Of a stretch of DNA of 64,000 nucleotides, positions 3,827 through 51,222 are shown one piece after another. Below the pieces are notes generated by a model. The model was given only the letters and a program-made list of their open reading frames with translations. It was not told the origin of the DNA and did not search any database. The stretch is taken from NCBI GenBank assembly GCA_021646465.1, contig SOET01000002.1:62001-126000 (forward strand), read 5' to 3'. Every line of letters starts with the position of its first letter. The first letter of the stretch is position 1. The translations under genes and the position numbers were made by a program. The stretch is from Candidatus Kuenenia hertensis. GTDB lineage: Bacteria; Planctomycetota; Brocadiia; Brocadiales; Brocadiaceae.

Positions 3827-4507
3827 TCAATCGACATTACACACCCCTAAATCCCCTCTCGAGAGGGGACTAAGGGGTGTGTTATTCCTTTCTATCTCCC
3901 ACCGCAATTTTCTAAGCGTCCTTGCCTCAATCTTCCGTACCGTTTCCTTTGTAATGTTTAACCTCATCCCTGCTTCCTCCAGGGTAAGGCCCTGCCAGAA
4001 TCTCAGGGTAATAATCATCCGTTCCCTTTCACACAAACGGTTCATACTATCCTGAATCTGATGATAAAAAGCCGCTTCATCACTTCGTGGATCCTCAGAT
4101 ACAAGGACGTCCTTCCGGGTTGTCTCAAACTCATCATCGTAAAGGGGTTCATCCAGTGAAACGCAGGCATCCCGGCGCTGATTCGCCATTGCCTTCATTA
4201 CACCCTGGGTAATTGCAATGCCTGCATACGTAAGAAACCGAATGCCCTTGTCCGGATCAAAGGTTTTCGTGGCTCTTATGAGACCCTGGCATCCCTCAGA
4301 AACCATATCCATAATGGAAAACCCCGGCAGCCAGTATTGGTATGCCACCTTGAGAACAAATCTCAGGTTCGATTCAACAAGCCGGTTTCTTGACCCCACA
4401 TCGCCCATTTTTGATTGCCGTGTCAATATCCGTTCCTCATCCTGAGTAAGCATCGGAAAACCCTCCAAATCCCTTTCAAACATACGCATCAGCTTTTTTT
4501 CTTCCAT
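3827..4507 (-). CDS. Sigma-70 family sigma factor
   Basis: A 226-residue RNA polymerase sigma factor carried by the element. Region 1.2 is at about residues 17-45 (PMLTQDEERILTRQSKMGD), region 2 at about 46-115 (LVESNLRFVLKVAYQYW, DMVSEGCQGLIRA, FDPDKGIRFLTYAG), and region 4 at about 155-205 (LCERERMIITLRFWQGLTLE, then NITKETVRKIEARTL). Region 3 is reduced to a short linker. The C-terminal tail NNTPLSPLSRGDLGV is translated from a palindromic repeat. It lies downstream of a recombinase. It may direct host polymerase to element promoters, but its target promoters are unknown. Confidence 0.9.
   Translation of the reverse strand: MEEKKLMRMFERDLEGFPMLTQDEERILTRQSKMGDVGSRNRLVESNLRFVLKVAYQYWLPGFSIMDMVSEGCQGLIRATKTFDPDKGIRFLTYAGIAITQGVMKAMANQRRDACVSLDEPLYDDEFETTRKDVLVSEDPRSDEAAFYHQIQDSMNRLCERERMIITLRFWQGLTLEEAGMRLNITKETVRKIEARTLRKLRWEIERNNTPLSPLSRGDLGVCNVD
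3841..3880. repeat. Palindromic repeat inside sigma gene end
   Basis: A near-perfect palindrome with centre CCCCTCTCGAGAGGGG, flanked by ACACCCCTAA and TAAGGGGTGT. It encodes the last residues of the sigma factor. The same AT/C-rich design recurs at 30090-30160, and shorter relatives lie at about 6150-6180 and 9190-9216. Confidence 0.8.
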
Positions 4508-4575
4508 CTCCCCTCCCTTCCGTGATATAAATTGTCGTATCGCAAAAGGGAAAGACGCCCCCCTGATTTTTTCAT

Positions 4576-4603
4576 GGCCACACGCTTACCGGAGCGCGTG
4601 GCC
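4576..4603. terminator. GC-rich hairpin between recombinase and sigma genes
   Basis: GGCCACACGCT (4576-4586) pairs with AGCGCGTGGCC (4593-4603) with one mismatch. The hairpin begins right after the recombinase stop codon. In the leftward direction no T-run follows, so it may be an attenuator or mRNA stabiliser. A T-rich run follows it in the rightward direction. Confidence 0.5.
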
Positions 4604-5881
4604 TTATTTATTTAACGGATTATGCATCCCAGGATGATCCTCATAACTTTGCGCCGAATGCACATAGATCATCGTAGTATTAATATCCTGGTGTCCCGCA
4701 AGCTTCTGGATATCCTGTATCCTTACCTTTTCCTGGGCAAGTGTAGTAAAGGCAGTATGCCGCAACGCATGGGCGCTTAAAACCGCTCCCTCTCTCCGGA
4801 TATCTGCCTTTTTTATATGCCGTGCAACGATATTCTCCACAGACTTTACGGAAAGGGCATTTGGCAGCCGATCCCTTCGTATCACCAGACCATGATCCAC
4901 CCGGTCATAAATAAAGGGCAGGAAAATAGGAAGCTCCCCGGTTATCTTTATGCCGTTATCCTTTACCGTATCGATCCAGGCGTCAAATGCCAGCAACGCC
5001 TTGCCGTTTAATATAATTGGAGTGCTTGGCCTGTTTTGATGCCTTCCCTTCCTGTCAACAATCCACACCTTTTGCTGACCCTTTACCCTGTCGTGTTCAA
5101 GGTGTTTATGCCTCAGCCCTGATACCTCGTTTGCCCGGAGGCCGTACACCAGCATAAAAAGCAGTATCGCATAATCACGCTTGCCGATATCCGTCTTACG
5201 GTCTGGCTGCTGCAGCAGCCTCTTTGATTCCTCTACACTCAGGACGGAATAGTATCCCTTATCTTTCTTCGGGAAAACAAGAGAAAGCTCCCTGAAGATA
5301 ATGGGGTTCCGGAATTTCCTGTTTTCCCTCTCTATATGCTTGAAAAACCTGTTAAGGGAAATGAACTTATTCCAGATAGTGGTATCCTTATAGGAATTTT
5401 TACGGAGGTAATCCCTGTATGCCATAACGTCCGCCTTTGATATCTCGCAAAGGTCCTTATTTGCCCATGTGAAAAACAGCTTGATAAGGTTCTCATAGCT
5501 CCTTTTGGTATTGTGCGTATTCTGAGAAGCAATAAACCCCTCAAGGTATTTTTTCAGATCATCGCTTTTTACCCCCTTATGCGTCTTAAAATCCGCAAGG
5601 GAGACGATAGGGTTTTGAAACCCCTTTACCTTCTTTTCCAGGAATTTCAGGAAGTTATTTACTATGGAAAACTTCCTCTTGGTCGTCTTCGGCGAATGTT
5701 CCCCGGCTATTTTCTCCCGGTACACGTGAAGGATCTCTTTGGTAATGTCCTGGATATCATAATTTCCGGACCCGAAAAACTGTTGTATCTCAGAGCGGTA
5801 GACCCTCTGGCTGCCGCCGTCATATTGCTTCAGATACAGTCCAAAAAGTTTTTGCCCTTTAGCGGTATCAAGGTAAGACAT
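4604..5881 (-). CDS. Second tyrosine recombinase (XerC/D-like)
   Basis: A 425-residue tyrosine recombinase. Two SAM-like N-terminal stretches (about 1-80 and 85-190) precede the catalytic domain, which shows GLRANEV, then HALRHTAF, AGHQDI and the nucleophile Tyr in MIYVHS. Start at ATG 5881 with GGAGGG seven bases upstream; it overlaps the GemA-like stop as TGATG. It lies in the middle of the element, far from the att sites, so it is probably not the integrating enzyme. Plasmid and phage elements use such enzymes for dimer resolution or a second integration route. All catalytic residues seem present. Confidence 0.9.
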   Translation of the reverse strand: MSYLDTAKGQKLFGLYLKQYDGGSQRVYRSEIQQFFGSGNYDIQDITKEILHVYREKIAGEHSPKTTKRKFSIVNNFLKFLEKKVKGFQNPIVSLADFKTHKGVKSDDLKKYLEGFIASQNTHNTKRSYENLIKLFFTWANKDLCEISKADVMAYRDYLRKNSYKDTTIWNKFISLNRFFKHIERENRKFRNPIIFRELSLVFPKKDKGYYSVLSVEESKRLLQQPDRKTDIGKRDYAILLFMLVYGLRANEVSGLRHKHLEHDRVKGQQKVWIVDRKGRHQNRPSTPIILNGKALLAFDAWIDTVKDNGIKITGELPIFLPFIYDRVDHGLVIRRDRLPNALSVKSVENIVARHIKKADIRREGAVLSAHALRHTAFTTLAQEKVRIQDIQKLAGHQDINTTMIYVHSAQSYEDHPGMHNPLNK

Positions 5882-6354
5882 CAAACACCCTCCAGTTTCT
5901 TTTTCCTACCCCTTAAAAAATCAATCAATTGCCCGGCTTTTTTTGCATCCAGTTCCTGTAACGATTCCACTTTACGATACTTTCGGAGATGGTTCTTAAA
6001 ATGGTCGTCATCCCCATATCCGGCTTTTATCCTGAGAGATTCGATATAATCTATCTGGCTCTGAGAAGCAAGAGACGAAAAACGGGCAATTACCTTTTTC
6101 CCTTTTCTTGAATGCGGAGATATCTTCTTTTGTAACGGATCAGCGGAAGTTGTCCCCCTCCGGAGGGGGTTAGGGGGAGGATTTCCTTCCAGAATATCAA
6201 TCAACACTATTCCCTGTCTTTTAGTAAGCGCCCTCGTAGATCTCTGTCCGGATACAAACCCTACGATATCCCGAAGCTGTTTTTCCGGCATCCCTATCTC
6301 ATCAGCCTTTGCCCATATCTTCGTTTTCTGTCTGGCAGTAATTTTCTTTGCCAT
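5881..6354 (-). CDS. GemA/Gp16-like protein (DUF1018 type)
   Basis: A 157-residue protein with the two-part layout of phage Mu GemA/Gp16. The N-terminal part is KIWAKADEIGMPEKQLRDIV, then VSGQRSTRALTKRQ. The C-terminal part is SQIDYIESLRIKAGYGDDDH and then ELDAKKAGQLIDFLRGRKKK. Between them, NPPPNPLRRGTTSADP is translated from an inserted palindromic repeat. GemA of Mu affects host gene expression and DNA supercoiling, but its mechanism is poorly known. It is coupled to the downstream recombinase. The family match is by eye and moderately secure. Confidence 0.7.
   Translation of the reverse strand: MAKKITARQKTKIWAKADEIGMPEKQLRDIVGFVSGQRSTRALTKRQGIVLIDILEGNPPPNPLRRGTTSADPLQKKISPHSRKGKKVIARFSSLASQSQIDYIESLRIKAGYGDDDHFKNHLRKYRKVESLQELDAKKAGQLIDFLRGRKKKLEGV
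6150..6180. repeat. Palindromic insert inside GemA-like gene
   Basis: TCCCCCTCCGGAGGGGG followed by TTAGGGGGAGG belongs to the same C-rich palindrome family as 3841 and 30090. It is translated in frame as a Pro/Arg-rich linker between the two domains of the GemA-like protein. Confidence 0.65.
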
Positions 6355-6852: not shown

Positions 6853-9492
6853 TCATATATCTGAAAACTCCTTAATCACCTGCCAGGGAATAAGGGTTAA
6901 TCTCCTATTTTTCGTTACCCCTTCCTCTATCCTGACGGTTCTTGAGCACGTAAACTTCCCGCCTTCACGTTTAATCCACCCTTTTTCAGCCCATGATCGC
7001 AGTATTGCCCTTTCGGAGTATTTTTCAGATCTCAGAACCTCTGCAAGTTTATGCGGATAAATGCCAATATATTCACCTTCCTTCCATTGGCCGTATGATT
7101 CGCAGTCGGTATTTTTAAAGTACTTTTCATTTCCGCTTGCCCAGGACAAAAGATGCTGCATTGCACGTGTGCCAATATCAATATCTTCCAATGATTCCTC
7201 GATCACATAACCAAATACCCTGTCGATACTCTCCTTTGCCGTAATAGGGTCATCTATGCCAAGAATCTGATGGACAAGATCAATTGCCAGCTTCACTACC
7301 GCAAAATACTGACTGTACCTGTCACCAACTTCAGAATTTGCCTCCATTGACAATGCCCGTTGATACATCTTATAGTCTGCCTTAAGCCTTGTTATTTCAT
7401 CCTGGTTATTCCAGAAAGATAAAAGACCTTGTATGAATTTTATACCGGCATGCCCGTAGTTCTCGCGAATGCATTGTTTAAGATCATTGATAAACTCAGC
7501 GCCTGCATTAGGGAAAGGGCTGCCGTATAATTCAATAGTACGCGCCCGCGCCCCTGAAAAGTTTGTGCATTCAGAAAGTGGGCGTTCACCGGTTGAAAAA
7601 CAGATGGTGTGCCATGTGGGAGTATGCCTGATGCCTGCGATTGATCCCCGTCCCTTACCAACACCATTGGCAATTTGGTAGAGCATACTCGACATAGTAC
7701 GATCATCTACTGTCTGCGAATCGTCCGGGAAGATGGGAATATCACAAAAGAAATTCGCTATCTTCTCAAGAAATACCCTTGTCGAATCCCAGCCAAAAAC
7801 TAACCCGCCTGCTTCCTTATGTGGATTTCCCCATACGCTGGCAGCCAGTTCCAAAACAGTTGTCTTGCCAAGGCTGGTATGCCCCCAAAAATCGATGATA
7901 AAATTTGGAGCTTTCAGCATTCGTAAGAGCGGCGCCGCAAACGATGCATAAAAGGCAAAAGCCGCGTAAGGATATTTCAAAGTAGGTTCTATACACTCCC
8001 TCCATTTCACATACGTTCCCTCTGGTTTCAATGCTTTAACAAACCGTTCAAAGCCAGGTTCCGGAAAAAACTCAACGGAGATATCCTTGCCGCCTTGAAA
8101 AGACTTGTTTTCCTGCTGAGATACCATCTTATTGAGAATAAAGACCTGTTTGCCTTCAATAGATTTTCTGCCAACGCCTTTGGAAATGTACGTTCTCGGA
8201 ATAATATTCATATTGAACGCTTCAAATGTTGCAAGATATTCAACCATTTTCCCGGCATTACGGCTGTTTGCCGGAAGCCCATGGTCTGAAAGCTCCAGTA
8301 TCTTTTTCGAATCTGAAATAATACGCTTTGATATCCACGTATATTTCCATTTGCCGTCTCTTTTGAAAGCGATCTTTACATCCTCCAGGCCAAGGTCTAC
8401 ATCTATTGCCCGCCCAACGATAAACAGCGGTGTATAAAAGGCAGGTTTTTTAACGGAAGTGTTGCCGTAACAAGATATCTGAATAACACGATCCTCTTTA
8501 ACCTCAAACCCTTCCGGTTCAATAAACTTGATTCCATCAATTTCCTTGACCTCGGAAGTTACTTCCTTCGCATTATCAATAAGCTGCTGGAAATCCGTTG
8601 CCGTTCTGCCCATGGAAATAAAAAAATCCGTTACGTCCTTTTTATCTGCGGAATCCATAGAGGACGGCCACTCAATTACCTTCACGCTTTTTGCAGCTCC
8701 CTTGAGGTTATTAATTACCAGCTCGGTTCCTTCTCTCCCCCCATCGTCATTGTCATACGCAATGATTACATTGTGGCCTTGAAAGAAAGCATTCCATTCC
8801 CTTTTCCACGTTCCAGCCCCGGCAGTTCCGGAGACAGCCGGGAAACCCATCTGGTTGAGTAACAACGCCTTGAATTCTCCCTCAGCAATAATAATATACG
8901 GCAAACCCTCTTTGATAATGCCGGAAGGGTACAACGTTGCTTTTGATCCTTTGGTCTGGCCTCCCTTGTGTTCCTTAAGCGCCCACTTGCCAGGCTCATC
9001 AGCCGCAATAGGGACAACGTAATGCTCGTTCTGATAGCCGATGAGGTACTTTTGTATGGTCTCAACGGATAGGCCATATCTCCCCTGGAAGGTCTTTAAC
9101 ACCGTCTCATTCTTCAGCAATTGGTTATGAATAAGCTTCACCTGGTCAAGGGTAAGGTATGCGGTTTTCTGACTTTTGGCGCTGGGTTTCACTTGTCCCC
9201 CGCTGGCGGGGGCAGGGGGTGGAGTCCCGGCTTCCTCCCGAATCTTTTTAACGGCGCTTTTCTTATCTAACCCATAACACAATTGGAGAAACGTAACCGC
9301 ATCTCCCTTTTTCCCGCATCCAAAACAGCGGAAAACACCCTTTTCCACGTTTACCGATAGGGAAGGGTTCTTATCATCATGGAAAGGGCAAAGGCATTGA
9401 ACCTCCGTTTTCCCATTGGCTTCAAATCCGGATATATGCTTCTGGTAAAAACTCCGGTAATCAATCCTGTCTAGCATTTTTTTAACGTTCAT
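6853..9492 (-). CDS. Toprim primase fused to DUF927 helicase
   Basis: An 879-residue replication protein. A CHC2-type zinc finger is at about residues 33-60 (CLCPFHDDKNPS, FRCFGCGKKGDAV). A Toprim domain is at about 195-270 (IIIAEGEFKALL with the catalytic Glu, IAYDNDDGGREG with the metal-binding Asp pair). A DUF927-type ATPase/helicase is at about 350-720, with Walker A GHTSLGKTT and downstream PDDSQT. Primase-helicase fusions of this kind drive autonomous replication of phages, satellites and ICEs. A proline-rich stretch (PPPAPASGG, about residues 91-99) is coded by an inserted palindrome. The iterons lie 26 bp past its stop codon. Confidence 0.9.
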   Translation of the reverse strand: MNVKKMLDRIDYRSFYQKHISGFEANGKTEVQCLCPFHDDKNPSLSVNVEKGVFRCFGCGKKGDAVTFLQLCYGLDKKSAVKKIREEAGTPPPAPASGGQVKPSAKSQKTAYLTLDQVKLIHNQLLKNETVLKTFQGRYGLSVETIQKYLIGYQNEHYVVPIAADEPGKWALKEHKGGQTKGSKATLYPSGIIKEGLPYIIIAEGEFKALLLNQMGFPAVSGTAGAGTWKREWNAFFQGHNVIIAYDNDDGGREGTELVINNLKGAAKSVKVIEWPSSMDSADKKDVTDFFISMGRTATDFQQLIDNAKEVTSEVKEIDGIKFIEPEGFEVKEDRVIQISCYGNTSVKKPAFYTPLFIVGRAIDVDLGLEDVKIAFKRDGKWKYTWISKRIISDSKKILELSDHGLPANSRNAGKMVEYLATFEAFNMNIIPRTYISKGVGRKSIEGKQVFILNKMVSQQENKSFQGGKDISVEFFPEPGFERFVKALKPEGTYVKWRECIEPTLKYPYAAFAFYASFAAPLLRMLKAPNFIIDFWGHTSLGKTTVLELAASVWGNPHKEAGGLVFGWDSTRVFLEKIANFFCDIPIFPDDSQTVDDRTMSSMLYQIANGVGKGRGSIAGIRHTPTWHTICFSTGERPLSECTNFSGARARTIELYGSPFPNAGAEFINDLKQCIRENYGHAGIKFIQGLLSFWNNQDEITRLKADYKMYQRALSMEANSEVGDRYSQYFAVVKLAIDLVHQILGIDDPITAKESIDRVFGYVIEESLEDIDIGTRAMQHLLSWASGNEKYFKNTDCESYGQWKEGEYIGIYPHKLAEVLRSEKYSERAILRSWAEKGWIKREGGKFTCSRTVRIEEGVTKNRRLTLIPWQVIKEFSDI
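9188..9216. repeat. Palindromic insert inside primase gene
   Basis: TCCCCCGCTGGCGGGGGCAG is a hairpin of the C-rich palindrome family. It is translated in frame as the Pro/Ala linker between the zinc finger and Toprim domains, where an insertion is least harmful. Confidence 0.6.
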
Positions 9493-43655: not shown

Positions 43656-44876
43656 TTATTTTGTACAAGCATCTTTTCCTTCTTGTTCAGCAAATGAAGT
43701 ATTGAAAAATTGATATCTGTTTCTTCCTTGTTTTTTCGCACTGTACATAGCAGCATCCGCATTTTTTAATAATGTTTCCGCATTTGTCCCGTTTTCAGGA
43801 TAGAACGCAATACCAATACTCGTGGAAACGCACACCTCTTTTCCCGCGAGTGATATTGGTTCTTTAACTACCCTGAGTAATTTTTGGACAACTTTAACGA
43901 TATCCTCCGCAGATGCAATTTCAGCTAACAAAACCGTAAACTCATCTCCTCCCAGACGGGAAACGGTATCAACTCCCCTCACACATTTTTCAAGCCTGTG
44001 TGCAACAATCTTCAAAAAATTATCCCCTTCCTGATGCCCAAAACAATCATTAATGTGTTTAAAATGGTCAATGTCAAGAAACAACACTGCTACTTTTTTT
44101 CTGTGGCGCCCTGCCCATGCTATTGCCATTGCAAAACGTTCGTCAAACGACGAACGATTCGGCAGGCCAGTGAGCACATCATAGTATGCCATACGGTGTA
44201 TTTTGTTTTCCATGAGTTTGCGGTCCGTTACGTCCCGTATCATCACAAGCAGAGCTTTTCTTCCTTCCCATTCAGTATCAGCGGCACGCAGTTCAGCAAT
44301 GCCCAATGCAGAATCAGCCCTTTTAATGTCTATTTCTGCCACCTCTCCGGAAACTACCGGTATGCCAAAGGAAGACCCAACAATCTTTTCCGGACTACTG
44401 CCTAAAGCAATTCCCGCCATCGGATTGGCAAAACGTACAGTTCCCTGCACATCAACAACAATAATTCCATCAGCACTCCTTGCAACAATATTATGAAAAT
44501 CCCTGTGCAGTAATTTGAAGCTGGTAATGTCTTCCTGTATGCCTACAAAATGGGTAATGGTTCCTGCTTTATTTCTTACCGGAGAAATTTTCGCGTGTGT
44601 CCAATAATAACCTCCGTCCTTCTTTTTATTATGAAACTCCCCGTTCCAATCCTTGCCGGAAGTGATGGTATCCCATAGATTTTTGTACTCTTCCTGCGGC
44701 ATCTCACCGGATTTTAAAATCCGAGGGTTTTGCCCCATTGCCTCTTCTTTGGCGTATCCAGTCAACTGGGAAAATTTTTTATTTACGTATTCTATAGTAC
44801 CCTTCACATCGGTAATAATTACTGCACACGCACTCTGTTCAACTGCATGAGATAATAGAATATGCTCGTCTGTCAT
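43656..44876 (-). CDS. PAS-PAS diguanylate cyclase
   Basis: A 406-residue protein. A first PAS/PAC at about 5-125 (AVEQSACAVIITDVKGTIEY, GIQEDITSFK), a second PAS at about 130-225 (DGIIVVDVQGTVRFANP), and a GGDEF domain at about 235-395. The GGDEF motif is intact (SRLGGDEFTVLL) with an inhibitory I-site RGVD five residues before it. It should make cyclic di-GMP under PAS control. It starts six bases after the hybrid kinase, last gene of the Kai run. Confidence 0.9.
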   Translation of the reverse strand: MTDEHILLSHAVEQSACAVIITDVKGTIEYVNKKFSQLTGYAKEEAMGQNPRILKSGEMPQEEYKNLWDTITSGKDWNGEFHNKKKDGGYYWTHAKISPVRNKAGTITHFVGIQEDITSFKLLHRDFHNIVARSADGIIVVDVQGTVRFANPMAGIALGSSPEKIVGSSFGIPVVSGEVAEIDIKRADSALGIAELRAADTEWEGRKALLVMIRDVTDRKLMENKIHRMAYYDVLTGLPNRSSFDERFAMAIAWAGRHRKKVAVLFLDIDHFKHINDCFGHQEGDNFLKIVAHRLEKCVRGVDTVSRLGGDEFTVLLAEIASAEDIVKVVQKLLRVVKEPISLAGKEVCVSTSIGIAFYPENGTNAETLLKNADAAMYSAKKQGRNRYQFFNTSFAEQEGKDACTK

Positions 44877-44882
44877 GTGTTT

Positions 44883-46772
44883 TTATTTAGCTACCATTTC
44901 ATGAATCTTTTTGACTAACCTCGATGGCAAGACAGGTTTTTGCAAAAATGATACGCTTTCTCCCGTAAACATACTCTGGTCAATAATATTTTCGGAATAG
45001 CCGCTGAGAAAAATAGCCTTCACTTCCGGTGCAATCTTTTTGATTTCATCATAGGCATCTTTTCCATTCATTACCGGCATTTTTACATCCAGAATCAAAA
45101 GGCAGACTACATCCTTGTTTTCTTTAAATTTTTCCACGGCGTCTGCTCCATTTACTGCCGCAATAACCTCATAACCAAATTTTCCCAGCACCTCTTTCAT
45201 AAGAAACCTTACCGATTCATCATCTTCCGCTATCAATATCCGCCCCGCGCTAACAGCAGAAAAGCTATCTGGTCCGGTATCGGAATCCGCGGGTTTTCCG
45301 GGAAGATCATTTGCAAGGGGCAAATAAATAAAAAAAGCTGCACCTTCTCCAAATTCACTATGGACGTCGACAAAACCATTATGCTGTTTCACAATGCCAT
45401 ACACAATTGAGAGGCCAAGGCCGGTACCTTTTCCAACATCTTTTGTCGTAAAAAAAGGTTCAAATATTTTTTTTCTTATGTCGTAGTCTATACCAATGCC
45501 CGTATCAGTTATTGAAAGAAGTGCGTATTCCCCTTTTTCCCCAAAACCATGTATTTTAATAAAGTCATCATCAATTATTTCACTATCCGTTTTTATGGTA
45601 ATTTCCCCGCCGTCCGGCATTGCGTCTATCGCGTTGGTAACAAGATTCATGATTACCTGTTCCAGTCGGTTCTTGTCTGCCTTAACAACCAATTTCTTAT
45701 CAGATAACAGTACATTACACTGTATTTCCTCTCTGAGAAGCCTGTCTGTTAGCACTCTGGCTCCTTGTACAATGGTATTCAACTCCAGCGGTTGAGTTAC
45801 GATTACCTGTTTTCTGCTGAATGCGAGAATGCTGCGCGTCAAATCAGCAGCCCTTTCGGCAAGTGTGAGAACTTTATGAAGATATTCTTTTGCCGGAGTA
45901 TTATCTTCTAATGCTATTTCCACTAAATTAGTATATCCTATAATTGCCATGAGAATATTGTTAAAATCATGAGCAACCCCACCAGCAAGCCTTCCGACTG
46001 ATTCCAGCTTTTGCGCATGGAATAATTGTTCTCTCAGTTCCTCCTGTATGCTTGCGGCACGTTTCATTTCAGTAATATCCTCTTTTATACCAAGAAAGCC
46101 GGTTATTTCGCCCTCTTTGCTCTTTATCGGTGATATCTGCGCAAGTTCCCAATAGTATTCTCCATTTTTTTTCTTGTTATAAAACTCCCCCTGCCAGCAA
46201 TTACCGATGGTAATAGTATCCCATAATGTCTTGTATTCTTCCGGTGTTGTTTTCCCTGATTTTAAGAACCGGGGGTTTTGTCCCATAATTTCCGACGCTG
46301 TATAGCCTGTTATTTCCGCAAATTTTGGATTTGCATATTGTATGTTTCCATTAATATCGGTAATTACAATGCTACTCATACTTTGCTCAACAGCCTTTGA
46401 TAATTTGCGCAACTGTTCGTTTATTTTTCTGTTTTCCGTCACATCCTGTATCAAAACAAGAAATGCCTTTTCACCGTTCCATACCGTTTCCACCTCCCTC
46501 ATCTCAGCAATTCCAACCGACCCGTCAGATTGACGAATATCAATCTCGGCCACAGTTCCATGCGTCAATGGCATTCCAAACGGTGTCCCCAAAAGCATTT
46601 CATCATTAATCCCAAATAAATCATTTGCAACGGGATTTGCGTAACAAATAACGCCTTCCTTATTCGTTATAATAATACCAACCGGACTCTTTTCCACAAT
46701 ATCGCGAAACTGTTCGTAGGCAAGTGCGTAGTTTTTAATATCGCCTTTTTTTATACCTTCAGAATTTTGCAT
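44883..46772 (-). CDS. Hybrid PAS histidine kinase with receiver
   Basis: A 629-residue soluble kinase. PAS at about 20-120, PAS/PAC at about 125-245 (AVEQSMSSIVITDINGNIQY, GIKEDITEMK), H-box VGRLAGGVAHDFNNILMAII with the phospho-accepting His, ATPase domain (NRLEQVIMNLVTNAIDAMPD, TDTGIGID, GTGLGLSIVYGIVKQHNG), and a receiver at about 510-625 (ILIAEDDESVR, LLILDVKMPVMNGKDAY). It follows kaiC by 15 bp. In cyanobacteria a kinase reads the Kai state; this enzyme could play that part here, which is inference. No ribosome site seen. Confidence 0.92.
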   Translation of the reverse strand: MQNSEGIKKGDIKNYALAYEQFRDIVEKSPVGIIITNKEGVICYANPVANDLFGINDEMLLGTPFGMPLTHGTVAEIDIRQSDGSVGIAEMREVETVWNGEKAFLVLIQDVTENRKINEQLRKLSKAVEQSMSSIVITDINGNIQYANPKFAEITGYTASEIMGQNPRFLKSGKTTPEEYKTLWDTITIGNCWQGEFYNKKKNGEYYWELAQISPIKSKEGEITGFLGIKEDITEMKRAASIQEELREQLFHAQKLESVGRLAGGVAHDFNNILMAIIGYTNLVEIALEDNTPAKEYLHKVLTLAERAADLTRSILAFSRKQVIVTQPLELNTIVQGARVLTDRLLREEIQCNVLLSDKKLVVKADKNRLEQVIMNLVTNAIDAMPDGGEITIKTDSEIIDDDFIKIHGFGEKGEYALLSITDTGIGIDYDIRKKIFEPFFTTKDVGKGTGLGLSIVYGIVKQHNGFVDVHSEFGEGAAFFIYLPLANDLPGKPADSDTGPDSFSAVSAGRILIAEDDESVRFLMKEVLGKFGYEVIAAVNGADAVEKFKENKDVVCLLILDVKMPVMNGKDAYDEIKKIAPEVKAIFLSGYSENIIDQSMFTGESVSFLQKPVLPSRLVKKIHEMVAK

Positions 46773-46787
46773 TTTATTTGCAAATTA

Positions 46788-48293
46788 TTATTTTGCCTCA
46801 TCGGTAAATAAGGTATTAATACGGTCCAGTTCCCCTGCGGGAATCTGCATCGGTCTTCCTGCCAATATGCCACTTACATTGGTAAATGATTTGCCAATAT
46901 GCATCCCATGGTTATCTATCGTGACTTCGCGAATATCCTTATTGTGAGCAGAACCGCGCATTTTCAATACGGTGATGCCTCTGCGCATTTCACCGTACAT
47001 CTCCACATATCTCAAAAGGATAATGGAATCAGTAATGGTTGAAATGTGTGTTTCGGTAACGGATGTTCCCCCCGTAAGCGTTGGCGTTGTTGCGGTGAAA
47101 AGCCCGGCAATTTCCTGATGTTTGATAAAAGACGTCAGATCGATCACAAATTCACGAAAACCCTTAATGGTGGATATTCGCTCCAGTGCAGATAAACTAT
47201 CGATTGCGACACGATTGGGTTTAAACCGGTCAATTTCCGTTTTCATTCTTATAAGGTGTTCTTCCAATCCCGTTGTTTCGGGGTAAGTGCATACCACTCT
47301 CAGTTTTCCTTCATTTTCCATTTTTTCAAAATCATGGCTCCATCCGCTGGCATTCCTGAAAAGCTGGTCACTGCTTTCTTCAAAAGCAAAGAGCAAACAC
47401 CTTTCGTCTTTTTTAGCGCCTCCTGCGATAAATTCTGTGGTCATAAGGGTTTTCCCGCAACCCGTGGCGCCGGAAACAAGAATTATGGAATCACGGAAGA
47501 AACCGCCACCGCACATCTTATCCAATTCATCATTTCCGCAACTTATTCTGACCATTGACGATTTGTGCTTCAGCTCAATCGCTGACAGCGGAATAACGAT
47601 AATTCCCTTCTCCGGCACTACCGAAAAAGGATACTCTCCCTTTTGATGGTTTGTTCCGCGGAATTTTAATATTTCCAATGTCCTCCTGCGCTTCTCCGCC
47701 TCCAGAACGTTTCGCAGGATAATTACATTGTCTGCAACAAACTCTTCCACGCCGTAACGGCTGATATCTCCATATTCCTGAGTACGTTCTGCCGTCATTA
47801 TGGAGGTAACACCCATCTGCTTTAATTCAACAGAAATACGGAAAAGTTCGCTTCGGATTATCGGAATAGATGAAAGCTGAGTAAAAATAGCTCCTAAAGA
47901 ATCCATGGAAACGCGCTTTGCACCAACCTTATCAATAGCCCTCTTTATGCGAATCAGCAAACCTTCCAGATCAAACTTACCGACAATAATCACCCCTCCT
48001 TCTATTTGCGGAGAGGCGTCGACAAACGCCCATTTTCCCTCACTCTCCCATTTTCGAATATCCCAGCCTAAGCCATGCATATTTTTTCGTATATCTTCAG
48101 GAGATTCTTCAAATGTTATGAATACCCCGTTTTCATTTGCCTGCAATATGCCCTCCGCCAAAAATTGGACGGTAAAGATTGTTTTTGCGCTTCCGGAAGT
48201 ACCTGTTATCAGTGTATTACGTCCTTTTGGCAGTCCGCCGTTCGAAATAAAATCAAATCCGGGGATCCCGGTTGCAAGTTTTTGAACATACAT
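46788..48293 (-). CDS. kaiC: KaiC-like double-domain ATPase
   Basis: A 501-residue KaiC with two RecA-type halves. Half 1 has Walker A GTSGSAKT (31-38) and the Glu pair FEES (61-64). Half 2 has GATGCGKT (275-282) and FEESS (304-308). The half-2 phosphorylation segment TETHISTITD keeps all three residues that cycle in cyanobacterial KaiC: Thr413, Ser418, Thr419. ERTQEYGDISRYGVEEFVAD is the matching half-1 segment. The C-terminal tail after ILAGRP is shorter than the cyanobacterial A-loop tail. AAAGGAG precedes the ATG. It is flanked by kaiB and a histidine kinase. Confidence 0.93.
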   Translation of the reverse strand: MYVQKLATGIPGFDFISNGGLPKGRNTLITGTSGSAKTIFTVQFLAEGILQANENGVFITFEESPEDIRKNMHGLGWDIRKWESEGKWAFVDASPQIEGGVIIVGKFDLEGLLIRIKRAIDKVGAKRVSMDSLGAIFTQLSSIPIIRSELFRISVELKQMGVTSIMTAERTQEYGDISRYGVEEFVADNVIILRNVLEAEKRRRTLEILKFRGTNHQKGEYPFSVVPEKGIIVIPLSAIELKHKSSMVRISCGNDELDKMCGGGFFRDSIILVSGATGCGKTLMTTEFIAGGAKKDERCLLFAFEESSDQLFRNASGWSHDFEKMENEGKLRVVCTYPETTGLEEHLIRMKTEIDRFKPNRVAIDSLSALERISTIKGFREFVIDLTSFIKHQEIAGLFTATTPTLTGGTSVTETHISTITDSIILLRYVEMYGEMRRGITVLKMRGSAHNKDIREVTIDNHGMHIGKSFTNVSGILAGRPMQIPAGELDRINTLFTDEAK

Positions 48294-48318: not shown

Positions 48319-48618
48319 TTACATATCATTGTCATCTTCTGAAATTTTTGATTTCAGATCAAGCCCAAGTAAAACCTTCCCGGTCGCCGACATATCACCG
48401 ATAATCCTCCTGATGGGAGGCGGTAATTCTTTAATAAGCGTCGGAGTTGCTAATATTTTTTCATCCTCCGCCAATTGCGGGTGTTCCAAAATATCGATCA
48501 CTTCCAGGGAATACATGCCGTGCAGTTCATTTTCACATATACTGCGCAGATTCACAATAGCCAGTTTTGATCTTTCCGTATTTCCCGTAACATATAACCT
48601 TAGTACATATTTTGACAT
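48319..48618 (-). CDS. kaiB: KaiB, copy 1
   Basis: A 99-residue thioredoxin-like clock protein, very close to cyanobacterial Kai[59 protein letters not shown], and GKVLLGLDL. It should switch fold and bind KaiC. GAGGAAAG precedes the ATG, and the stop is 25 bp from the kaiC start. Confidence 0.95.
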
Positions 48619-48677: not shown

Positions 48678-48704
48678 GTAGGGGTTGAAGATTTTCAACC
48701 CCTG
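48678..48704. repeat. GTAGGGGTTGAAGA palindrome at gene end
   Basis: An imperfect copy of the palindrome at 20207. It overlaps the end of the sensor gene and supplies its last codons (Asn-Arg-Gly-stop). Confidence 0.65.
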
Positions 48705-50638
48705 TTGCTCTTTCTTCGGTAATAAGAAACTAAGCACCCCATTAATTCTATAATCACAAAACGCCCTTCCTCCGTATATGCCTGTAACTTTGAGGATAGA
48801 ACATCTTTACATTTTCTTTTCATGGCAGTGCTGTGGATCTGCGCTACATCATCCGGTCCGGCCCCTGCCGAACCTAATCGTTCCGCGAAACTCCGGAGAT
48901 GCTCTGAAAGACGATGCTCAACCTTATATACCTGTTCTTTTATCGCCAGATCCAATAAATTTACATATATTCCGACAAACTCCTCAAAAAGATCAACCCC
49001 GTTTTCACTCATCGACTGGGAATAACGCACCTTATTCTTAACATCACTTAGAAGAAAATCCGATGATTGATTTAATGAGCTTACCTCCCTCTCCTGTTTC
49101 TGGCGTACACGAATTTCTTCGGCTTGCTTCCGTTCGGTAATATCCTCCTTAACGCCAACAAAATGGGAAATAACCCCTTCTTCATTTCTTATGGGAGAGA
49201 TGATCGCATATTCCCAGAGTAAACTACCATCCTTTCTTTTATTATGGAATTCTCCCTGCCATTTCCGCCCGGACATAATTGTTTCCCATAATTGTTTATA
49301 TTCTTCTGAGGATGTCTCACCTGACTTTAATATGCGGGGATTCTTTCCGATAACTTCGTTATAGGAATAGCCGGTAATTTTATAAAAACTGGGATTAACA
49401 TATTCAACATTTCCTTTGGGATCGGTTATTACCACAGAATTCGGGCTTTGTTCTACTGCGAATGAAAGTTTGCGAAGCTGCATTTCATTTTGCCTGCGAA
49501 TGGCAATCTCGTGTGAAAGATTTTCCGCCATGGTATTAAAACTCATCGCCAGCTTTCCGATTTCATCTTTATTCAGTATTGAAACCCTTCGATTCAGTTC
49601 CCCCGATGCAAATTTTTCCGTTGTAATTTTAAATGTATTAATCGGGCGGGAAACTGAATGCGCAAAAAAGGCTCCAACGGAAATTGCAATAGCGGCGCTA
49701 ACACCTCCTGTAATCAGTGCAACAATTCCCAAAGTGCTCAATGGCGCATAAACTTCCGATTTATCTATTTTTGCCACTAGCCCCCACTGCAATGAAGGAA
49801 TATATTCATATGCCGCCACAACGTCAACACCCCGGTAATCATGTGCAATAAGAGTACCGCTTTTCCCCTCCAACGCTAACTTCATTGGCCGTGCTTCTCC
49901 GGATTCTACAGGAACCCGCACGTTGAGAGGAGGCTCTGTTCTATAACGCAAAGCCGTTAAAAAAGTAATATTGTCCCGAACCATTACCCCTAATAAAATC
50001 TCTCCCGAATCGCCCATCCCCACCCGGCTGGATGTCGTTTCGCTTAATGAATCAAGCAGATAATAATTCGTTAATATACCGAGAATTTCACCCTCTTTTT
50101 TTGAAGGTATTGCAACCATCATTGGAATGCAATTTATATCTATGCCGGGAACGTACAAGGGATGCTCGACAAACGCATCTTTAGAAAGGTGATTTTTGAA
50201 CAGTACAAAATCATGATTTGTTGATAACTCCAGATTGATCATGTTTTCATTAGTCGAGGCAATAATCTTTCCATCGGGGCGTGCAATTGATATCGCAGCA
50301 ATATGGGTATCCAATGATTTTTTTTGCGTAGTGAGATAATTATTTAAGACGGTGACGTCATCTTTTTTTTCATCCTCTGCAAAAAAAATTGCTTCCAGTT
50401 GTTTCCTTATAAACCCATCTGAACTGAAATCCGTTGTTCTCCACTTTTTTGCTTCGATAAACGTTAATATATGAAGCTTCCTGGATTCAGCAATCGATGA
50501 CAGCTCGTTCAATTGATGATGTTTCAATACTTTTCCGGCATGAAAATAATACAGGAAGGTAATCAAAATGATCGGAATGAGCGAAATGGAAAGTCCAAAC
50601 AGCAACAGCTTGTTTCTTATTGTTTTAAACACAATCAA
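48695..50638 (-). CDS. Cache-HAMP-PAS sensor with KaiA-like C-terminus
   Basis: A 647-residue membrane sensor without a kinase domain. TM1 about 10-32 (SISLIPIILITFLYYF), a periplasmic Cache-type domain about 33-290, TM2 about 295-320, HAMP about 320-375 (SRPINTFKITTEKFASGEL), PAS/PAC about 385-500 (AVEQSPNSVVITDPKGNVEY, FVGVKEDITERKQAEE). From about 525 on comes a helical domain with YVNLLDLAIKEQVYKVEHRL, GPDDVAQIHSTAMKRK and FVIIELMGCLVSYYRRKS. The latter resembles the KaiA C-terminal/RsbU N-terminal four-helix fold (IH...M...L..GR...I..L...YRR). It lies between two kaiB genes, so a KaiA-like input to KaiC is likely, but not proven. Confidence 0.8.
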   Translation of the reverse strand: MIVFKTIRNKLLLFGLSISLIPIILITFLYYFHAGKVLKHHQLNELSSIAESRKLHILTFIEAKKWRTTDFSSDGFIRKQLEAIFFAEDEKKDDVTVLNNYLTTQKKSLDTHIAAISIARPDGKIIASTNENMINLELSTNHDFVLFKNHLSKDAFVEHPLYVPGIDINCIPMMVAIPSKKEGEILGILTNYYLLDSLSETTSSRVGMGDSGEILLGVMVRDNITFLTALRYRTEPPLNVRVPVESGEARPMKLALEGKSGTLIAHDYRGVDVVAAYEYIPSLQWGLVAKIDKSEVYAPLSTLGIVALITGGVSAAIAISVGAFFAHSVSRPINTFKITTEKFASGELNRRVSILNKDEIGKLAMSFNTMAENLSHEIAIRRQNEMQLRKLSFAVEQSPNSVVITDPKGNVEYVNPSFYKITGYSYNEVIGKNPRILKSGETSSEEYKQLWETIMSGRKWQGEFHNKRKDGSLLWEYAIISPIRNEEGVISHFVGVKEDITERKQAEEIRVRQKQEREVSSLNQSSDFLLSDVKNKVRYSQSMSENGVDLFEEFVGIYVNLLDLAIKEQVYKVEHRLSEHLRSFAERLGSAGAGPDDVAQIHSTAMKRKCKDVLSSKLQAYTEEGRFVIIELMGCLVSYYRRKSNRG

Positions 50639-50741: not shown

Positions 50742-51005
50742 TTACAAATCGAGACCAAAGAGAACCTGATTCCTCACAGAAAGATCTCCCACCACCCTTC
50801 TTTCTTTTCCCGGGGAAATTTTTACCAGTGTGGGGGTAGCAAGAATGCGATTCTCTACCGCGGCTTCAGGGTTCTCAACTATATCAATAATTTCTTCTTC
50901 ACACTCTCTGGCAGAGAGATCACGAATTAATTTTTGAAAATTCTCTACCGCTTTCTGAGAATTTTCGGTTTTCCCTGATATATAAAGCTTAAGGATATAT
51001 TTCAT
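50742..51005 (-). CDS. kaiB: KaiB, copy 2
   Basis: An 87-residue KaiB-type protein: KYILKLYISGKTENSQKAVE, EEIIDIVENPEAAVENRILA, TPTLVKISPGKERRVVGDLS, VRNQVLFGLDL. It is more divergent than copy 1: PPP of the usual KELPPPIRR motif is replaced by SPGKERR. The ATG at 51005 gives the family length; the upstream in-frame extension has no sense. First gene of the leftward Kai run. Confidence 0.9.
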   Translation of the reverse strand: MKYILKLYISGKTENSQKAVENFQKLIRDLSARECEEEIIDIVENPEAAVENRILATPTLVKISPGKERRVVGDLSVRNQVLFGLDL

Positions 51006-51222
51006 CTCATTTTTTCTATTACATTTATAAGATAAATACTTCGGGGAAAAATAAGTGCAAATAAAATGGATGGCATTAAAGCATAGTATTTTGCAATTTG
51101 CAATAATTTTTCTTTTGCAATAACAACAAAATAAGGTAGCACTATCTTCAGTGGGAAACACCACGAAATAAATTTGAAATTGAAATAGTTTCGATTTATG
51201 TTATAATCCATTTTCACAATTG

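Follow-up and report, generated by a model that had tools for sequence, protein, structure and literature searches.

We found that a transmembrane sensor encoded in the window (the whole stretch of 64,000 nucleotides that was analysed) ends in a KaiA-type output domain, and sequence searches showed that this receptor was the only KaiA-like protein that could be found in the genome. The gene occupies positions 48695-50638 of the minus strand and encodes 647 amino acids from a TTG start. The membrane receptor is likely to be an input-controlled KaiA that acts in the manner of KaiA3, with a transmembrane receptor replacing the receiver (probability of about 0.78). This reading rests on no experiment; the ligand, the direction of the effect, the binding to KaiC and the output are all inferred. 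The genome itself is a 4.17-Mb draft in 89 contigs from an anammox planctomycete, in which the hydrazine synthase alpha subunit (PF18582) was present.

Sequence and predicted structure together showed the architecture TM-dCache-TM-HAMP-PAS-helix-KaiA-type four-helix domain, always on the minus strand. Hydropathy placed a first transmembrane helix at residues 11-29 (50552-50608) and a second one at residues 303-321 (49676-49732), with a predicted periplasmic dCache ligand-binding domain between them (residues 45-289, 49772-50506), assigned from Pfam and from the relatives of the protein. The dCache_1 match of the sensor reached only 32.5 bits, below the Pfam cut-off of 45, but relatives sharing 46% identity with the sensor half did pass it, such as L143 (58.3 bits). 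The layout of a dCache receptor, with this domain between two transmembrane helices and a HAMP domain thereafter, was met in the sensor, as far as hydropathy defines the helices. Pfam recognised the HAMP domain at residues 324-375 (49514-49669) and a PAS domain at residues 391-505 (49124-49468). The PAS domain is joined to the KaiA-type domain by a long linker helix (residues 510-536, 49031-49111), which corresponded to helix 2-27 of the predicted fragment, the confidence of the model falling towards its end. Finally, a four-helix domain of the KaiA/KaiA3 C-terminal type was localised at about residues 540-647 (48698-49021) by profile, structure and context. No Pfam family matched the protein beyond about residue 508, that is, in its last ~140 residues.

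The sensor gene is the second of six genes in the order kaiB'-sensor-kaiB-kaiC-kinase-cyclase, separated by 103, 76, 25, 15 and 6 bases, and their common strand (minus) and spacing led us to infer a single operon. Upstream of the sensor, kaiB' (50742-51164) is an additional, divergent kaiB that shares 44% identity with the other one, and its true start is likely to lie inside this ORF. Downstream there is a kaiB of canonical type (48319-48618; Pfam KaiB 1.7e-27, NCBIfam PRK09301 above cut-off) and a kaiC with two ATPase domains (46788-48293; NCBIfam circ_KaiC 632 bits against a cut-off of 546). The KaiC keeps the Ser/Thr phosphosite motif HISTITDS as well as the C-terminal tail GKSFTNVSGILAGRPMQI...FTDEAK, which resembles that of KaiC in other KaiA3-type operons. 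Two candidate outputs come next: a PAS-PAS-histidine kinase-receiver protein (44883-46772), 15 bases after kaiC, and a PAS-PAS-GGDEF diguanylate cyclase (43656-44876), 6 bases after the kinase. A search for a second KaiA in the genome with PF07688 gave no match above the cut-off (the best had an E of 0.07 and internal stops), and the profile of the tail family found no KaiA-type tail other than the one at this locus. The initial annotation had described a tail without kinase or cyclase domain, a position between two kaiB genes and the lack of a separate kaiA gene; all three claims held, the last one now for the whole genome with both PF07688 and the family profile.

As a lone query, the tail found nothing in Pfam, NCBIfam, the PDB sequences or the first genome scan, so that its relatives could be reached solely via planctomycete homologues. 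When 147 related genomes were searched, one clear homologue was detected (L005, E 1e-12), in which the same tail stands behind a receiver domain, with kaiB and kaiC directly downstream. The weak matches of that search (L006-L011) were unrelated proteins or non-genes, and no relative of the KaiA-type domain of L005 was found in plasmids. A two-sequence profile run against 392 planctomycete genomes added three strong homologues (L015, L016 and L017), all of them with a receiver plus the tail and located ahead of kaiB-kaiC. With the resulting five-sequence alignment, the GTDB collection yielded 106 loci, of which we kept 80. They belonged to Cyanobacteria (Microcystis, Crocosphaera, Prochloron and others), Chloroflexota (Roseiflexus and others), Accumulibacter, Competibacter, Desulfobacteraceae, Myxococcales, Spirochaetales, Nitrospinota and more. 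kaiB was located directly downstream in 74 of the 80 homologues, and kaiB and/or kaiC adjoined 78. The window tail showed 28-46% identity to the KaiA3-type domains of cyanobacteria, Chloroflexota, Accumulibacter and others. With the window row left out of the family profile, the window protein was still recovered with E=3e-36 from a set of 321 window ORFs and 2000 shuffled sequences, the best of the latter reaching 0.83.

The 80 loci had been picked by one motif at residues 624-633, and the conservation of these residues is therefore partly built in. Outside the selection motif, Phe551, Leu581, Gly589, Pro595, Asp597, His602, Gly634, Tyr640 and Arg641 were conserved. Arg626 and Tyr640 were invariant in the family, and the other near-invariant positions were kept in the window protein, with a single conservative swap (Ile630 for Leu). 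Two residues speak against a full equivalence with KaiA. The first one is Asp596, at a position that is Arg in 64 of 65 relatives and Lys in the remaining one, so that binding may differ or be weakened. The second is Cys635, at a position occupied by Tyr in 38 and by His in 15 of the 65 relatives; it aligns with the His that is essential in cyanobacterial KaiA.

The AlphaFold model of the tail, obtained with 66 sequences, had a mean pLDDT of 86 and contained four helices (domain residues 39-62, 68-81, 86-101 and 106-137). The best eight structural matches given by VIA-align were all KaiA C-terminal domains (Z 11.1-11.9 over 90-103 residues), the first unrelated row having a Z of 9.8, and Foldseek also ranked the KaiA C-terminal domain first, with a weak E-value. 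Because helical bundles often reach middling Z values, the fold match counts only together with the context. RsbU structures were absent from the 50 fold matches listed, which says nothing for or against. When the family profile was compared with the PDB sequences, KaiA was among the best matches, weakly (E 0.13), and hhalign against eleven cyanobacterial KaiA domains gave an E of 7e-4 with a probability of 26%. RsbU_N (15/66) and KaiA (14/66, best KaiA E 2e-4) were the Pfam families matched by most relatives, and no other Pfam family was consistently indicated in the profile and family searches. In two cyanobacterial genomes (L126 and L127), the KaiA Pfam model took the receiver-type homologue as a second, weak match.

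The link to canonical KaiA is thus weak by sequence, resting mainly on fold and context, and the nearest relative is KaiA3. The family was equated with KaiA3 because both share architecture, operon place and genera, and not from a direct comparison with the Synechocystis protein. Fold, profiles and operon context together leave little doubt that the tail is of the KaiA3/KaiA C-terminal type. The proposal of a helical tail like the KaiA C-terminal or RsbU N-terminal fold, made in the initial annotation, therefore held: the predicted four-helix bundle with its KaiA matches and the profile searches, which pointed to KaiA and RsbU_N, were both in its favour. The suggestion that the protein could replace KaiA was supported with a correction, since its closest relatives are of the KaiA3 type and not canonical KaiA. 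That a periplasmic ligand is coupled to KaiC is still only inferred, as are the binding to KaiC and the dimer contacts.

The family to which the sensor half belongs was present in all 59 genomes searched, with 21 matches in its own genome. Relatives with ~40-46% identity are dCache-HAMP-PAS kinases or cyclases of anammox planctomycetes and their kin. The close relatives that were scanned ended in a histidine kinase, a GGDEF or a GGDEF-EAL module (some loci were cut at the edge), and the KaiA-type domain therefore occupies the place of the output. The sensor module is native to anammox planctomycetes, where it is usually fused to kinase or cyclase outputs. The tail domain was absent from the other 74 genomes of the class, including two of the same genus, and the occurrence of the fusion in only one of 75 genomes is a point against our main reading. 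The operon KaiC was up to 72% identical to KaiC of Roseiflexus, and the KaiC proteins of other members of the family were at best ~40% identical to it. Gene trees gave no strongly supported placement of the window tail domain or of its KaiC, so that the donor of the operon was not identified. The patchy presence suggests that the operon may have been gained from outside, without proving it.

The initial annotation did not foresee that the domain family is spread over many phyla behind several input modules. In other kai operons, the KaiA-type domain follows a receiver, a receiver-PAS, PAS repeats, MEDS-PAS, MASE3-GAF or a histidine kinase. Two Desulfobacteraceae (L094 and L097, 5705-7318, plus strand) bear a protein composed of a MASE3 membrane sensor, a GAF and a KaiA-type domain upstream of kaiB-kaiC, and these MASE3-GAF proteins represent another kind of membrane-bound KaiA. 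When 395 genomes of the phylum of L094 were searched for further membrane fusions, seven matches were obtained: the known MASE3 protein, a single PAS type and five proteins of the receiver type, of which one was cut short. In a member of the Myxococcales (L082, 4011-5264, plus strand), a HisKA-HATPase histidine kinase precedes the KaiA-type domain, with a divergent kaiB and a kaiC downstream. In a genome of the same taxonomic order as the window (L165), a 184-residue coiled-coil protein (7102-7653, minus strand) is located ahead of kaiB (5798-6106) and kaiC (4057-5613). This protein matched RsbU_N above the Pfam cut-off and the KaiA3-family profile with an E of 1e-4; the same slot thus seems to be taken by a second, divergent protein of KaiA/RsbU_N type, one that ties RsbU_N to KaiA. 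A planctomycete group (L019, L021, L022, L023, L025 and L028; L162-L164) has a degenerate receiver plus the KaiA-type domain, the layout of a true KaiA. Neither kaiB nor kaiC was found within 1.5 kb of the genes of this group, nor in the 10-kb stretches around three of them; one adjoins a Ser/Thr kinase gene and one adjoins the gene of an FHA protein.

In the cyanobacterial clock, KaiA holds the C-terminal tail of KaiC and so promotes its autophosphorylation. In the mechanism that we propose for the membrane receptor, a periplasmic ligand, possibly with a second signal at the PAS domain, would bring about a change in the receptor dimer, and the HAMP domain, the PAS domain and the linker helix would relay the signal to the pair of KaiA-type domains located at the membrane. 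This pair would either grip the C-terminal tail (A-loop) of KaiC or let it go, and KaiC autophosphorylation would go up or down. KaiB bound to KaiC may counteract the effect of the KaiA-type domain, and the downstream histidine kinase and diguanylate cyclase would probably read the state of KaiC. That a periplasmic ligand controls KaiC is an inference without experimental data behind it.

One rival explanation is that the tail is an RsbU_N-like dimerising and partner-binding module that recruits a protein other than KaiC, for instance the histidine kinase encoded downstream or a kinase resembling RsbT. In its favour are the RsbU_N matches of the relatives (15 of 66), the passing of the RsbU_N cut-off by the divergent L165 protein, which occupies the same slot in a related operon, and the fold that the KaiA C-terminal and RsbU N-terminal domains have in common (PMC11372060). 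However, 78 of the 80 homologues are adjoined by kaiB and/or kaiC, KaiA3 acts on KaiC3 with the same domain (PMC11372060) and none of the genes seen in the operon resembled RsbT or RsbS, and we consider this explanation improbable. It is also unlikely that the tail has lost KaiC activation and now just keeps KaiB-KaiC tethered or sequestered at the membrane, or that it is a remnant in decay. Asp596, where all 65 relatives have Arg or Lys, and the absence of the domain from all the other genomes of the class would fit such a loss, but the frame is open, the fold is confident, the gene order is tight and the remaining near-invariant positions are kept or, as Ile630 for Leu, conservatively replaced. 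An assembly chimera of a sensor gene with a kaiA3-like gene could be suspected from a fusion that is known from a single draft genome in 89 contigs, but it is very unlikely given the uninterrupted frame within a 153-kb contig, the even base composition and the existence elsewhere of PAS-KaiA and membrane MASE3-GAF-KaiA fusions in the same operon slot.

We prefer the reading of the receptor as an input-controlled KaiA. Up to now, KaiA has been considered a mainly cyanobacterial protein, and the inputs known for the Kai clock act within the cytoplasm. A bolder reading, which we favour by a small margin only, is that an extracytoplasmic ligand sets the KaiC of this anammox bacterium via a membrane-bound KaiA, so that the Kai system works as a timer or switch set by a signal, whose outputs are a histidine kinase and c-di-GMP, and that KaiA-type domains are a general plug-in class of output, like HisKA or GGDEF. 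If this is true, the KaiA domain would be a general output module, which many phyla have placed after receivers, PAS domains, histidine kinases and membrane sensors, and here one protein could be enough for a periplasmic ligand to act on KaiC. The role of Kai proteins in non-photosynthetic bacteria, whether clock, hourglass or signal-set switch, would become testable.

Among known systems, the closest one is KaiA3, that is, Sll0485 of Synechocystis 6803 and its orthologues, which supports circadian phosphorylation of KaiC3 in vitro (Köbler et al. 2024, PMC11372060). Both proteins have a homologous C-terminal KaiA-like domain and are encoded directly upstream of kaiB and a kaiC of the KaiC3 kind (in the window, 76 bases to kaiB and 25 more to kaiC). 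In contrast, KaiA3 has an N-terminal NarL-type receiver and no membrane part, whereas the window protein has TM-dCache-TM-HAMP-PAS. Canonical KaiA (PF07688) has in common with it the C-terminal four-helix fold, the operon order A-B-C and a partner KaiC whose tail is kept; however, the window protein has no pseudo-receiver, PF07688 does not match its domain and the essential His is replaced by Cys. The N-terminal domain of RsbU (PF08673) is likewise a partner-binding regulatory domain, of distant kinship through other members of the family, which match the RsbU_N model weakly; the model gave no match in the window protein, which, unlike RsbU, has no PP2C phosphatase domain and is encoded in a kai and not an rsb operon. 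The dCache-HAMP-PAS kinases and diguanylate cyclases of anammox planctomycetes and their kin are alike in the sensor half, but they end in a kinase or GGDEF output, where the window protein has one of KaiA type. Dvornyk and Mei (2021, PMC8113500) described the N-terminal variants OmpR, REC, AtoC and PHA02030 of cyanobacterial KaiA and one planctomycete with a kaiABC operon of the cyanobacterial type; the relevant sections of that paper include no membrane receptor among the KaiA variants. Nothing relevant on a membrane or anammox KaiA was found in the open-access literature searched, subscription papers being outside its scope. What was known before is the receiver-type KaiA3; what is new here is a KaiA-type domain placed under a dCache transmembrane receptor.
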